This document shows, in pieces, positions 58,421-61,870 of a stretch of 64,000 nucleotides of DNA. The first letter of the stretch is position 1; every line of letters begins with the position of its first letter. Source of the DNA: Dokdonia pacifica (GTDB lineage: Bacteria > Bacteroidota > Bacteroidia > Flavobacteriales > Flavobacteriaceae). Both the position numbers and the translations under genes were made by a program. Where the stretch lies: positions 248,001 through 312,000 of the forward strand of contig NZ_FZNY01000005.1 of the NCBI RefSeq assembly GCF_900188275.1, read 5' to 3'. A model generated the notes under the pieces. The model was not told the DNA's origin and ran no database searches. It saw nothing but the letters and a program-made list of their open reading frames with translations.

Positions 58421-58936
58421 ATGAAATATTTAAAGTATCTAATCATCCTTATTTTAGTGCTTGGAATAGCTTTTATAGCAAAAGGAATGATCACCCCTTC
58501 TATATCTTATGAAACTGAAATTGTCGTAAATAAACCTGTACAAGAATCTTGGGCAGTGATGTCTGATGAATCCAATTTACCCAAATGGATTAGAGGATTT
58601 AAAAAGATAGAACCTATAAGTGGAACCCCTAATACTTTAGGAGCTGTATCTAAAGTCTATATTGAAGAAGAAGGAACAGAAATGATCATGGAAGAAACGA
58701 TTACCGCTTTCAAAGAAAATGAGCATATGGCCATGTCCTTCACTATGGACTTTATGAATATAGATTATGAAATGTTCTTTAAAGATCAAGGTGGCAAAAC
58801 AGTGATTACCACAAAAACAAATACGACAGGTAATAGTATGATAGCAAAATCAATGTTATCATTCATGTCAGATGGAATGGGAAAACAAGAAGATGAAAAT
58901 TTAAATAATCTTAAAAACTTAATTGAAGGGAATTAA
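58421..58936 (+). CDS. SRPBCC/START-like protein, membrane-anchored
   Basis: A 171-residue protein. The N-terminus MKYLKYLIILILVLGIAFIAKG is a membrane anchor or uncleaved signal. The rest is an SRPBCC (polyketide cyclase/START-like) fold with VVNKPVQESWAVMSDESNLPKWIRGFKKIE and late strand TVITTKTNTTGNSMIAKSMLSFM. Such folds bind hydrophobic ligands. The stop overlaps the convergent HxlR gene by 4 nt. Confidence 0.85.
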   Translation: MKYLKYLIILILVLGIAFIAKGMITPSISYETEIVVNKPVQESWAVMSDESNLPKWIRGFKKIEPISGTPNTLGAVSKVYIEEEGTEMIMEETITAFKENEHMAMSFTMDFMNIDYEMFFKDQGGKTVITTKTNTTGNSMIAKSMLSFMSDGMGKQEDENLNNLKNLIEGN

Positions 58937-59268
58937 TCCGAATAATTAGCCACTACATAATCACCCCAATCTGCTACTGCTTTCAATAGCGGGATTAAGG
59001 TTTCTCCAAAATCTGTTAAAGAGTATTCTACCTTTAACGGAGGCTTTGTAGTGTATACTTTTCTTCGTATCACTCCATCCTTCTCCAATGTTTTTAATTG
59101 CAAACTCAATGTGCGCTCAGTAACTGTTTGCATATGCTTACGAAGTTCATTGTAACGCAAAGGCCCATCTATCAAATGAAATAAAATCACAGTTTTCCAC
59201 TTACCGCCTATAATACCCATCGTAATACTAGTACAACATGGGTATTCCTTTCCTTTTATTTTATACAT
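58933..59268 (-). CDS. HxlR-family transcriptional regulator
   Basis: A 111-residue winged-helix regulator. CCTSITMGIIGGKWKTVILFHLIDGPLRYNELRKHMQTVTERTLSLQLKTLEKDGVIRRKVYTTKPPLKVEYSLTDFGETLIPLLKAV follows the HxlR pattern (C-P-x-x-x-x-x-x-x-x-G-G-K-W-x-x-x-I-L ... L-R-F-x-E-L). Cysteines at the start (CC) could sense redox or electrophiles. The gene is divergent from the nitroreductase operon across about 100 bp, where both promoters overlap on one inverted repeat. It most likely controls that operon and itself. Confidence 0.93.
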   Translation of the reverse strand: MYKIKGKEYPCCTSITMGIIGGKWKTVILFHLIDGPLRYNELRKHMQTVTERTLSLQLKTLEKDGVIRRKVYTTKPPLKVEYSLTDFGETLIPLLKAVADWGDYVVANYSD

Positions 59269-59317
59269 AATTTCCTTGTTTTATAAGGGATTAGCCTACT
59301 ATCATTTTTGACCGTTA

Positions 59318-59351
59318 TTGCAAAGTTATACAACTATACTTAGTTTTGCAA
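59318..59351. promoter_or_regulatory. Superimposed divergent promoters on an inverted repeat (hxlR and nitroreductase)
   Basis: Plus strand: TTG at 59318-59320, N20, TAGTTTTG at 59341-59348, 24 nt before the ATG at 59373. Minus strand: TTG at 59351-59349, N20, TAACTTTG at 59328-59321, in front of hxlR. The ttgcaaa ... tttgcaa inverted repeat carries both -33 and -7 elements. Any protein bound to the repeat would cover both promoters. Confidence 0.85.
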
Positions 59352-59372
59352 CTATAAAAAATATAGTACATC

Positions 59373-60032
59373 ATGAATATCACGAAAATAATGAATTGGA
59401 GATACTCAACAAAGAGTTTTGACCCATCTAAAAAAATATCAAAAGAAGACTTTAAACACCTAAAATCATTACTAAGAATGAGTCCTTCTAGTACCAATAT
59501 CCAACCTTGGCACTTTATCATTGCAGACAATGAAAGTGGAAAGGAACGTATTGCTAAAGGTGCAGAAGGTTTTTTTCATTTTAACGAACCTAAAATTAAG
59601 AATGCTTCGCATGTAGTTGTATTTTGTTCTAGAACCAGTGCTGATCAAGACTATATGCAGCATTTATTAGCACAAGAAGATAAAGATGGGCGTTATCCTA
59701 ATGAAGATATTAAACAAGGCATGCACGATGCTAGAAATATCTTTGCAGACATTCATCGCTATGATGTAAAAGACTTTCAACATTGGATGGAAAAACAAGT
59801 CTATTTAAATATGGGAAGTTTCCTATTAGGTGTTGCCGCTATGGGCATTGATGCATTACCCATGGAAGGCGTAGATCTAAAAGCATTAGATGAAGAGTTT
59901 CACTTACGTGAAAAAGGATATACATCCATTGCCGTTATAGCTATTGGATATCGCGATGAAAGTGACTTTAATATCACAAACAAAACCCCTAAATCCAGAC
60001 TTCCTGAAGAAGAAATATTTACGCTATTATAA
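59373..60032 (+). CDS. nfsB: NAD(P)H-dependent nitroreductase (NfsB-type)
   Basis: A 219-residue FMN flavoprotein of the nitroreductase family. NWRYSTKSFDPSKKIS, LLRMSPSSTNIQPWHFIIAD, FADIHRYDVKDFQHWMEKQVYLNMGSFLLGVAAMGIDALPMEG and AVIAIGYRDESDFN resemble E. coli NfsB. It reduces quinones, nitro compounds or similar electrophiles. It is the first gene of an operon with an SDR and an LLM oxidoreductase, divergent from an HxlR regulator, which fits a response to redox-active or quinone compounds. Confidence 0.9.
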   Translation: MNITKIMNWRYSTKSFDPSKKISKEDFKHLKSLLRMSPSSTNIQPWHFIIADNESGKERIAKGAEGFFHFNEPKIKNASHVVVFCSRTSADQDYMQHLLAQEDKDGRYPNEDIKQGMHDARNIFADIHRYDVKDFQHWMEKQVYLNMGSFLLGVAAMGIDALPMEGVDLKALDEEFHLREKGYTSIAVIAIGYRDESDFNITNKTPKSRLPEEEIFTLL

Positions 60033-60040
60033 AACAACAA

Positions 60041-60069
60041 AAGCCTTCCTAACTAAAAGAGGAAGGCTT
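60041..60069 (+). terminator. Hairpin between nitroreductase and SDR genes
   Basis: aagccttcct-aactaaaag-aggaaggctt, a perfect 10-bp stem with a 9-nt loop. No strong T run follows, so it is more likely an attenuating or mRNA-processing hairpin than a full stop. Confidence 0.6.
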
Positions 60070-60085
60070 GTTTATCATAACAAAC

Positions 60086-60901
60086 ATGAGTAAAACAATT
60101 TTAATCACAGGAAGCACAGACGGTATAGGAAAGCTTGCCGCTACTCAATTTGCCACAAATGGACATGTGGTATATCTACATGGAAGAAACGCAGATAAAC
60201 TAGCAGCAACTATTTCTGAGATAAAGACAATTTCCCAAAATAAACAAGTACATGGTTTTATAGCTGACTTTTCAGATCTGAACAGTGTGCATGCGATGAT
60301 ACTTCAAATACAAAATGAAGTGCCAAAACTAGATGTACTTATTAATAATGCTGGAATATTTAAGAGTCCTATATCAAAAAGTAAAGATGACATAGACATT
60401 AGATTTGCAGTCAATTATTTTGCGCCATACATCCTCACTCAACAACTTATCCCCTTATTAGAAAAATCTACACAACCCAGAATCGTCAATCTAAGCTCAG
60501 CGGCACAATCTCCTGTTTCATTAAACGCATTAGTAGGGCAAGAAGAAATCACAACACAAGCTGCCTATGCACAAAGTAAATTGGCGCTCACTATGTGGAA
60601 TACATATCTTGCAATGACGTATAAAAACATAACAAGCATTGCCGTAAACCCTGGTTCCTTATTAAATACCAAAATGGCAAATGAAGCCTATGGACAACAC
60701 TGGTCTCCTGCCGATAAAGGAGCCAATATCCTGTATGATTTAGCGATTACAGAAGCATACATCAAAAACTCTGGCGCCTATTTTGATAATGATAAAGGGG
60801 ATGAAAAAGGACACTTTTCCAATGCGCATCCAGATGCAACAAATCAAGAAAAAATCCAACAACTCATTACTACAACCGATACATTTCTAGCATCATTATA
60901 A
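60086..60901 (+). CDS. Short-chain dehydrogenase/reductase
   Basis: About 271 residues from MSKTILITGSTDGIGKLAATQ at 60086; the frame is open from 60068. TGSTDGIG is the NAD(P) Rossmann loop, NNAG follows in LDVLINNAGIFKSP, and the catalytic SSAAQ...YAQSK (Tyr-x-x-x-Lys) is present. The C-terminal part is NPGSLLNTKMANEAYG. It is a classical SDR; the substrate is not visible. The gene is the second in the HxlR-associated operon. Confidence 0.93.
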   Translation: MSKTILITGSTDGIGKLAATQFATNGHVVYLHGRNADKLAATISEIKTISQNKQVHGFIADFSDLNSVHAMILQIQNEVPKLDVLINNAGIFKSPISKSKDDIDIRFAVNYFAPYILTQQLIPLLEKSTQPRIVNLSSAAQSPVSLNALVGQEEITTQAAYAQSKLALTMWNTYLAMTYKNITSIAVNPGSLLNTKMANEAYGQHWSPADKGANILYDLAITEAYIKNSGAYFDNDKGDEKGHFSNAHPDATNQEKIQQLITTTDTFLASL

Positions 60902-60946: not shown

Positions 60947-61870
60947 ATGCAAACACTTCAAAAAATTGCACAAAAAGGAAAGCTAAGTTTAGGATTAGTT
61001 TTCCCAATTGAATCCTATACAGGCGCTATTCCAAAAATGGAACATCAAGAACAACTTGCCAAAAGAGCGGAAGAGTTAGGTTTTAAAGCGCTATGGTTTA
61101 GAGATGTCCCATTTCATGACCCGCAATTTGGCGATGCAGGGCAAATCTATGACCCTTGGATTTACATGACGCATATCATGAATCAAACCAAGGATATAGC
61201 ATTAGCCACGGGAAGTATCATTTTACCTCTTCGCCATCCTGTACACACTGCCAAATCATTAGCAAGTTTACAAATACTTTCTAAAGGCAGAATCATTTTA
61301 GGCATAGCCTCTGGAGATCGCCCTATCGAGTATCCCGCGTTTCATCAGGACATACAGAAAAAAGGAGCACTCTTTAGAGATAGTTTTGCCTACATAAAAG
61401 CTTTACAAGGAGATTTTCCAAACTATACATCGGAGTATTATGGAACGACCAATGGTGCGATAGACTTACTTCCTAAAAGTTCGCATCAAACACCTTTTCT
61501 GGTAACAGGTCACTCCGGACAATCCTTAGAGTGGATTGCCAAACATGCAGATGGATGGTTGTATTACCCTAGAAATTTCAGTTTTTTACAACAAACTTTA
61601 TATAACTGGAATACAGCTTTAGAAAAGGAACAGCAACCCTGGAAACCCTATATGCAATCTTTATATCTTGATGTATTAGAAAACAACACAACCACACCAC
61701 AAGCTATTCATTTAGGTTTTAAGTCGGGAACAGACTATATCGTCGAACATCTAAAAGCGCTAGAATCCTATGGTGTGAATCATGTGATCATTAATTTAAA
61801 ATATGGCTCAAGACCTGTGGCCACTGTTTTAGAAGAGTTAGGAGAAACTGTGACCCCTCATTTTAAGTAA
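60947..61870 (+). CDS. LLM-class (luciferase-like) flavin-dependent oxidoreductase
   Basis: A 307-residue TIM-barrel oxidoreductase. LSLGLVFPIESY, AEELGFKALWFRDVPFHDPQFGDAGQIYDPW, TGSIILPLRHPVHTAKSLASLQILSKGRIILGIASGDRPIEY and VTGHSGQSLEWIAKHADGWLYYPR match bacterial luciferase-like monooxygenases and FMN/F420-type oxidoreductases. It probably acts on small organic substrates with FMNH2 supplied by a partner such as the nitroreductase. It is the last gene of the operon, and palindrome copy 16 follows after 30 nt. Confidence 0.9.
   Translation: MQTLQKIAQKGKLSLGLVFPIESYTGAIPKMEHQEQLAKRAEELGFKALWFRDVPFHDPQFGDAGQIYDPWIYMTHIMNQTKDIALATGSIILPLRHPVHTAKSLASLQILSKGRIILGIASGDRPIEYPAFHQDIQKKGALFRDSFAYIKALQGDFPNYTSEYYGTTNGAIDLLPKSSHQTPFLVTGHSGQSLEWIAKHADGWLYYPRNFSFLQQTLYNWNTALEKEQQPWKPYMQSLYLDVLENNTTTPQAIHLGFKSGTDYIVEHLKALESYGVNHVIINLKYGSRPVATVLEELGETVTPHFK

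Follow-up and report, generated by a model that had tools for sequence, protein, structure and literature searches.

Introduction

At the bio operator of E. coli and at lambda OR, one regulator governs two promoters over shared DNA, although promoter type and geometry at both differ from those of the locus described here. In E. coli, bidirectional promoters have been described in which one stretch of DNA binds RNA polymerase in two mutually exclusive orientations (Warman et al. 2026, PMC12825309). These promoters are reported to yield divergent mRNAs and to serve regulator/target pairs such as soxR/soxS and acrR/acrA, as in our case, and they share a symmetric -10 element, with starts mostly 18 bp (also 10 or 23 bp) apart. 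Competition between the two directions is reported there to appear only when one of them is strongly activated (PMC12825309), which calls for caution in any claim of a switch at the present locus. The RcoLS20 switch of plasmid pLS20 likewise has overlapping divergent regulator and target promoters with two operators, but it differs from this locus in its regulator, in the looping between the operators and in its Bacillus promoters (PMC4207663).

The DUF24 regulators YodB, QsrR, HypR and HxlR are thiol or electrophile sensors of the HxlR family with a conserved N-terminal cysteine (PMC8063818, PMC6798810, PMC7835342), and the targets described for YodB and QsrR are nitroreductases and quinone reductases (PMC8063818, PMC6798810). 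YodB binds the palindrome TACT[7]AGTA (PMC8063818), HxlR of B. subtilis is an activator (PMC7835342), and MhqR, a quinone-responding regulator of the MarR type, binds over the transcription start, from -6 to +12 (PMC6798810). The regulator studied here belongs to the same family and carries the same cysteine, whereas its superposed promoters have no counterpart mentioned in the available portions of the reports on these four regulators (PMC8063818, PMC6798810, PMC7835342).

Here we analysed a 64,000-nt stretch of the Dokdonia pacifica genome (the window) in which an HxlR-family gene and a nitroreductase gene diverge from a 34-bp core. Overlapping divergent promoters are already known; the geometry and promoter type found here differ from those of the systems above. 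No study of this regulator or locus was found in the open-licence literature (subscription papers may exist).

Results

Genes flanking the shared core

The HxlR-family regulator (58933-59268, minus strand, 111 aa) matched PF01638 with E 5.1e-30 and 103.6 bits against a cut-off of 20.8, identifying a winged helix-turn-helix protein, and its profile matched the solved structures of YybR (which we take to be HypR), HxlR, YodB and QsrR. The protein has CysCys at residues 11-12 and Thr at 13. Cys11 was invariant in 12 of 12 aligned HxlR sequences and aligned with the conserved N-terminal cysteine of B. subtilis HxlR, and a C..S motif was present in 101 of the 102 HxlR proteins tallied. This conserved N-terminal cysteine suggests electrophile sensing by HxlR; the Cys11-Lys13 pair described for the formaldehyde-sensing HxlR (PMC7835342) is lacking here, residue 13 being Thr. 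At its 3′ end, the hxlR stop overlaps (58933-58936) the stop of a convergent Polyketide_cyc2-type gene on the plus strand (58421-58936).

On the plus strand, a nitroreductase-family protein of 219 aa (59373-60032; PF00881, E 5.3e-23) is followed by a short-chain dehydrogenase (SDR; 60086-60901; PF00106, E 3.8e-34 in a search run on 60083-60901) and a luciferase-like (LLM) oxidoreductase (60947-61870; PF00296, E 9.6e-38). The SDR starts at the ATG of MSKTILITGS (60086), and the gap separating it from the nitroreductase stop holds a plus-strand hairpin at 60041-60069 (-15.3 kcal/mol, z -4.9), a possible terminator that none of 200 shuffles matched in stability. It was not among the matches of a consensus terminator scan, so it departs from the usual form of stem, loop and T-run. 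The initial annotation had extended the control of the switch over all three oxidoreductases; the HxlR/nitroreductase pair stands, and with the SDR gene lying beyond the hairpin, membership of the SDR and LLM genes in the nitroreductase transcript is uncertain. It may be that the nitroreductase, SDR and LLM genes do not share a transcript, or that the two beyond the hairpin are transcribed at a lower level.

Two predicted promoters superposed on 34 bp

A -33 TTG is an element of Bacteroidota housekeeping promoters. The segment between the two divergent genes, 59318-59351, was confirmed in the window sequence as TTGCAAAGTTATACAACTATACTTAGTTTTGCAA, and a -33 TTG with a -7 TANNTTTG box, in the form TTG-N20-TANNTTTG, is present on both of its strands, bearing out the initial proposal that TTG-N20 promoters of both strands use the same 34 bp. 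The nitroreductase (target) promoter on the plus strand, TTG-N20-TAGTTTTG (59318-59348), recognized from its letters and their conservation, has its -33 TTG at 59318-59320 and its -7 box at 59341-59348. The HxlR promoter on the minus strand, TTG-N20-TAACTTTG (59321-59351), superposed on the target promoter and recognized by the in-register comparison below, has its -33 TTG at 59351-59349 and its -7 box at 59328-59321. In Flavobacterium psychrophilum, for which a -7 consensus is also reported, the -7 box was mapped at -12 to -5 (PMC9723704), and transcript starts are predicted on that basis near 59353 (plus) and near 59316 (minus), some 20 and 48 nt upstream of the respective ATG codons. The shared symmetric -10 of the E. 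coli bidirectional promoters is not found here: the -7 boxes lie apart, at 59321-59328 and 59341-59348, each abuts the -33 element of the other strand, and the predicted divergent starts are 37 bp apart.

The core is partly symmetric, with 10 of 17 paired positions complementary, and the arms mirrored about its centre read TTGCAAA/TTTGCAA. These arms are the junctions of one strand's -7 box with the other strand's -33 element, and all 14 of their 14 letters fall within promoter boxes.

Single promoters of the TTG-N20-TANNTTTG form occurred twice in the window, both times here, against 1.9 expected; counts at this chance level were dropped as evidence. A generic sigma-70 scan gave no site at the core, and its 22 sites in all (23.5 in shuffles) were likewise set aside; its silence at the core is what Bacteroidota promoters would lead one to expect. 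When up to 3 mismatches were allowed over all 18 fixed bases of the superposed pattern, the 64-kb window yielded one match, the actual site with 0 mismatches, against 0.17 expected, and 16 of 100 window shuffles held at least one such match. In the 5.52-Mb genome the pattern occurred once at up to 2 mismatches, with no site for the reversed control, and a Markov estimate gave 0.0016-0.0022 exact matches expected per genome. The core TNGACCGTTNTTG was found in its own genome only here (4 sites for the reversed control), so the module looks local.

Of 397 Flavobacteriaceae genomes, 23 held the exact superposition, with 24 sites altogether against about 0.4-0.5 expected in some 1.3 Gb; in a set of 296 genomes from the phylum, 9 held 11 such sites. 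No reversed-control site was among the matches listed in either set. The two sets hold 34 distinct sites, the window's site being common to both, and 29 of these adjoin an HxlR-type gene (assigned by Pfam at L158, L159 and the window, and by sequence resemblance elsewhere). HxlR is paired with a flavodoxin-like protein at three loci (L152, PF02525; L155 and L160, by resemblance). The remaining exact sites adjoin TetR/SDR genes (L154), a LuxR-type gene (L151), cytochrome/porin genes (L134, L135) and a DUF4286 gene (L150). The LuxR-type (GerE) regulator at L151, together with the TetR/SDR locus, carries the layout beyond HxlR. At L134 and L135, from two genomes of one genus, no regulator gene adjoins the exact superposed promoters, and the divergent genes encode a NapC/NirT-type cytochrome and an alginate-export-type porin (by Pfam at L134 only). 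At L150 the exact site (positions 1217-1250) is flanked by the DUF4286 gene and by an 85-aa gene to which no Pfam family was assigned.

Compact and long loci

Orthologous loci were drawn from the best 30 HxlR-orthologue loci of 118 relatives (62 of the 118 genomes had a match) and from the best 80 named-genome loci of 576 relatives, so that the set leans to close relatives. One locus (L018), its gene interrupted by two stops, was excluded at the outset, and three duplicates (L002, L005, L007) were removed from the resulting 109 upstream regions. Four of the remaining 106 regions (L020, L029, L047, L086) were left out for want of the distal box described below, although L047 and L086 carry ACTAT-N7-ATAGT with 0 and 1 mismatch, and a distant paralogue at 45% identity (L030) was removed. 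The final set comprised 101 loci: 75 compact ones and 26 long ones with a second operator on the hxlR side. Loci were anchored on the distal box (at least 15 of 23 letters), with the target TTG at the end of the anchor pattern, so that the selection itself partly fixes the counts of distal-box letters and target TTG, whereas those of -7 boxes, operators and hxlR boxes are independent of the anchor. The first target gene, classified by simple sequence patterns, was a nitroreductase in 66 loci, MDR-like in 20, an SDR in 6 and other or incomplete in 9; the module thus stays while its target changes.

The target promoter was present in the strict form TTG-N20-TANNTTTG in 96 of the 101 relatives. 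The hxlR -7 box lay in register inside it in 57 of 75 compact loci and in none of the 26 long loci (Fisher p 1.9e-12 on 57/76 versus 0/26, with L030 included and relatives treated as independent). In the long class, where the hxlR-side operator begins 89-106 bp before the target TTG, CAAANNTA followed the target TTG in 0 of 26 loci, and a separate hxlR promoter, CAAANNTA-N20-CAA as read on the plus strand, was found in 25 of 26 beside its own copy of the operator. Since these separate promoters have the same N20 spacer, they identify the minus-strand elements independently. Examples of the full superposed layout are Psychroserpens jangbogonensis (L034) and Flavivirga algicola (L051), and examples of long-class loci with separate promoters are Winogradskyella sediminis (L075) and Saonia flava (L038). 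The minus-strand boxes of the window thereby appear to be a working hxlR promoter, for which the contrast between long and compact loci is the strongest evidence. A test aware of relatedness had too few pairs, 2 on starred branches or 5 when every branch of the best tree was used (median p 0.5); the tree of loci itself is poorly resolved (7 of 97 inner branches starred), and we claim no direction of evolution.

The hxlR -33 TTG was kept in 29 of the 57 superposed loci and lost in 28, compared with 25 of 26 kept at separate promoters (p 3.7e-5); superposition may often leave hxlR with a weak promoter, or its -33 element may be unimportant. Among the 18 of 75 compact loci without an in-register hxlR -7 box, 10 had CAA[AT]NNTA 8 or 11 bases past the start of the target TTG instead, and the promoter overlap may persist out of register in some of them.

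Candidate HxlR operators

Just past the target promoter lies the palindrome ACTATA-AAAAA-TATAGT (59351-59367), a putative operator that spans about -2 to +15 of the target and -35 to -51 of hxlR. Its ACTAT-N7-ATAGT form (up to 1 mismatch) followed the target promoter in 96 of 101 relatives (73 of 75 compact and 23 of 26 long loci), and this proximal palindrome is most likely the HxlR operator. Genome-wide, the motif was no rarer than its reversed control (17 sites versus 41), so these counts were dropped as evidence, and it is the conservation of its position that argues for the operator. Unlike the TACT[7]AGTA of YodB (PMC8063818), the candidate operator reads ACTATA-N5-TATAGT, with ACT and AGT 11 bases apart.

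The exact register of the two promoters can be explained by the operator. In 92 of 101 loci two bases separated it from the target -7 box, and at 25 of 26 separate hxlR promoters it shared one base with the hxlR -33 TTG. Where one operator serves both promoters at these fixed distances, TTTG and CAA must abut; an N20 spacer in each promoter then brings the far ends together as well. The ttgcaaa/tttgcaa repeat would then be a by-product of promoter boxes forced together.

On the other side, just upstream of the target -33 element, a conserved imperfect palindrome, ACTATC-N6-GACCGT, occupies 59298-59315. Its right arm (59310-59315 here) read GACCGT in 91, TACCGT in 4 and GATAGT in 3 of the 101 anchored loci, with three other forms once each. 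Because GATAGT makes the palindrome perfect in those three loci, this distal box is likely a site of HxlR, and it is probably a second, weaker operator. It was separated from the proximal operator by 53 bp in 93 of 97 loci measured and by 52 bp in 4. In the long loci, too, the box lies beside the target -33, a count made among loci chosen for having a box, and its likely point of action is therefore the target promoter. Among box-anchored loci, the degenerate GACCGT (91/101) is far commoner than the GATAGT of the perfect palindrome (3/101).

A further half-site, ACTATA at 59333-59338 on the plus strand, lies inside the spacer of the HxlR promoter, 18 bp before the proximal operator. Of the target promoters with an operator, 58 of 73 in compact loci and 7 of 24 in the long class had the exact hexamer, which was also present at 19 of 26 separate HxlR promoters; the half-site thus accompanies the hxlR promoter and may serve autoregulation. 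An alternating array of AACTA/TAGTT half-sites was also considered and rejected, the comparison retaining ACTATA-N5-TATAGT, the distal box and the middle ACTATA in its place.

Discussion

We consider it probable, on the evidence of sequence and conservation, that 59298-59367 forms one compact control module for a local redox response, in which HxlR acts as a thiol-based repressor, mainly through 59351-59367, combined with polymerase exclusion. Because the shared-core layout recurs in many relatives, it is very probably a working switch. The two predicted housekeeping-sigma promoters lie exactly over one another, each -33 TTG abutting the -7 box of the other, and their complete overlap would admit one polymerase at a time. 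The initial annotation had described divergent superposed promoters used by one polymerase at a time: the superposition is upheld by the comparison of loci, and the exclusion follows from steric reasoning. As conservation suggests, an HxlR dimer on ACTATA-N5-TATAGT would cover the nitroreductase start and keep the gene off, and a second dimer would occupy the weaker distal box on the opposite side. An operator over the start is plausible given that MhqR binds likewise (PMC6798810). By analogy with YodB, QsrR and HypR, an electrophile or quinone would react with the N-terminal cysteine, HxlR would release the DNA and the nitroreductase promoter would be freed; the freed core also faces hxlR, so that the regulator would be remade and the system shut. 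The activating role of B. subtilis HxlR (PMC7835342) makes repression less than certain.

Other readings were weighed against this repressor module. That only the target promoter works, the minus-strand boxes being an AT-rich coincidence and hxlR being read from elsewhere, would agree with the chance-level count of single TTG-N20-TANNTTTG matches, with the frequent loss of the minus-strand -33 and with the 18 of 75 compact loci that have no in-register box. We nevertheless judge it quite improbable: coincidence would hardly put the box in register in 57 of the 75 compact loci yet in no long locus, with the same N20 elsewhere in 25 of the 26 long ones, nor produce 24 exact sites in the family where less than one is expected. 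The initial annotation had HxlR likely binding the ttgcaaa/tttgcaa repeat itself, and this repeat does supply the arms mirrored about the 34-bp centre. Only 29 of the 75 compact loci and no long locus had the repeat, however, compared with 73 and 23 for ACTAT-N7-ATAGT at the target; all 14 letters of the repeat are already accounted for by promoter boxes, and its arms lie 27 bp apart centre to centre, against 11 bp for the TACT[7]AGTA of YodB (PMC8063818). This claim was consequently abandoned, and we now regard it as highly improbable.

A different division of labour would have HxlR select the orientation, activating as well as repressing through dimers on the two flanking sites. The proximal palindrome, centred at about +7, would block the nitroreductase promoter and, at about -43 of hxlR, stand in an activator position, and the distal box would do the reverse from about -46.5 of the target and +10.5 of hxlR. 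Placements in the long loci speak for it, since the distal box stays by the target -33 in all 26, where it is unlikely to serve hxlR, and an operator lies flush upstream of the hxlR -33 in 25 of 26, which suggests a role for each upstream site at the promoter it adjoins. There is precedent as well: B. subtilis HxlR activates (PMC7835342), and RcoLS20 has both roles at its overlapping divergent promoters (PMC4207663). Repression, however, is equally open to an upstream site in contact with the -33 element, and hxlR would be without its downstream block in the long loci. The choice of loci, moreover, partly ensures that long-class members have the distal box, which lowers our estimate slightly; we consider such orientation control unlikely, yet worth entertaining. 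A rather speculative and doubtful extension likens the locus to lambda: with mirror-placed HxlR operators, each dimer would block one direction and help the other, the state of the cysteine would decide between them, and the superposition would have been reached or kept beside TetR, LuxR-type and other HxlR-subfamily regulators as well.

The locus lends itself to the study of promoter competition in nature, away from the -10/-35 promoters of proteobacteria. Orthologous regulators with the same operator have superposed promoters in some species and separate ones in others, and measurements on such matched pairs would show how polymerase exclusion affects induction, noise and shut-off. The analysis also provides a predicted operator for a widespread redox regulator of the Bacteroidota.
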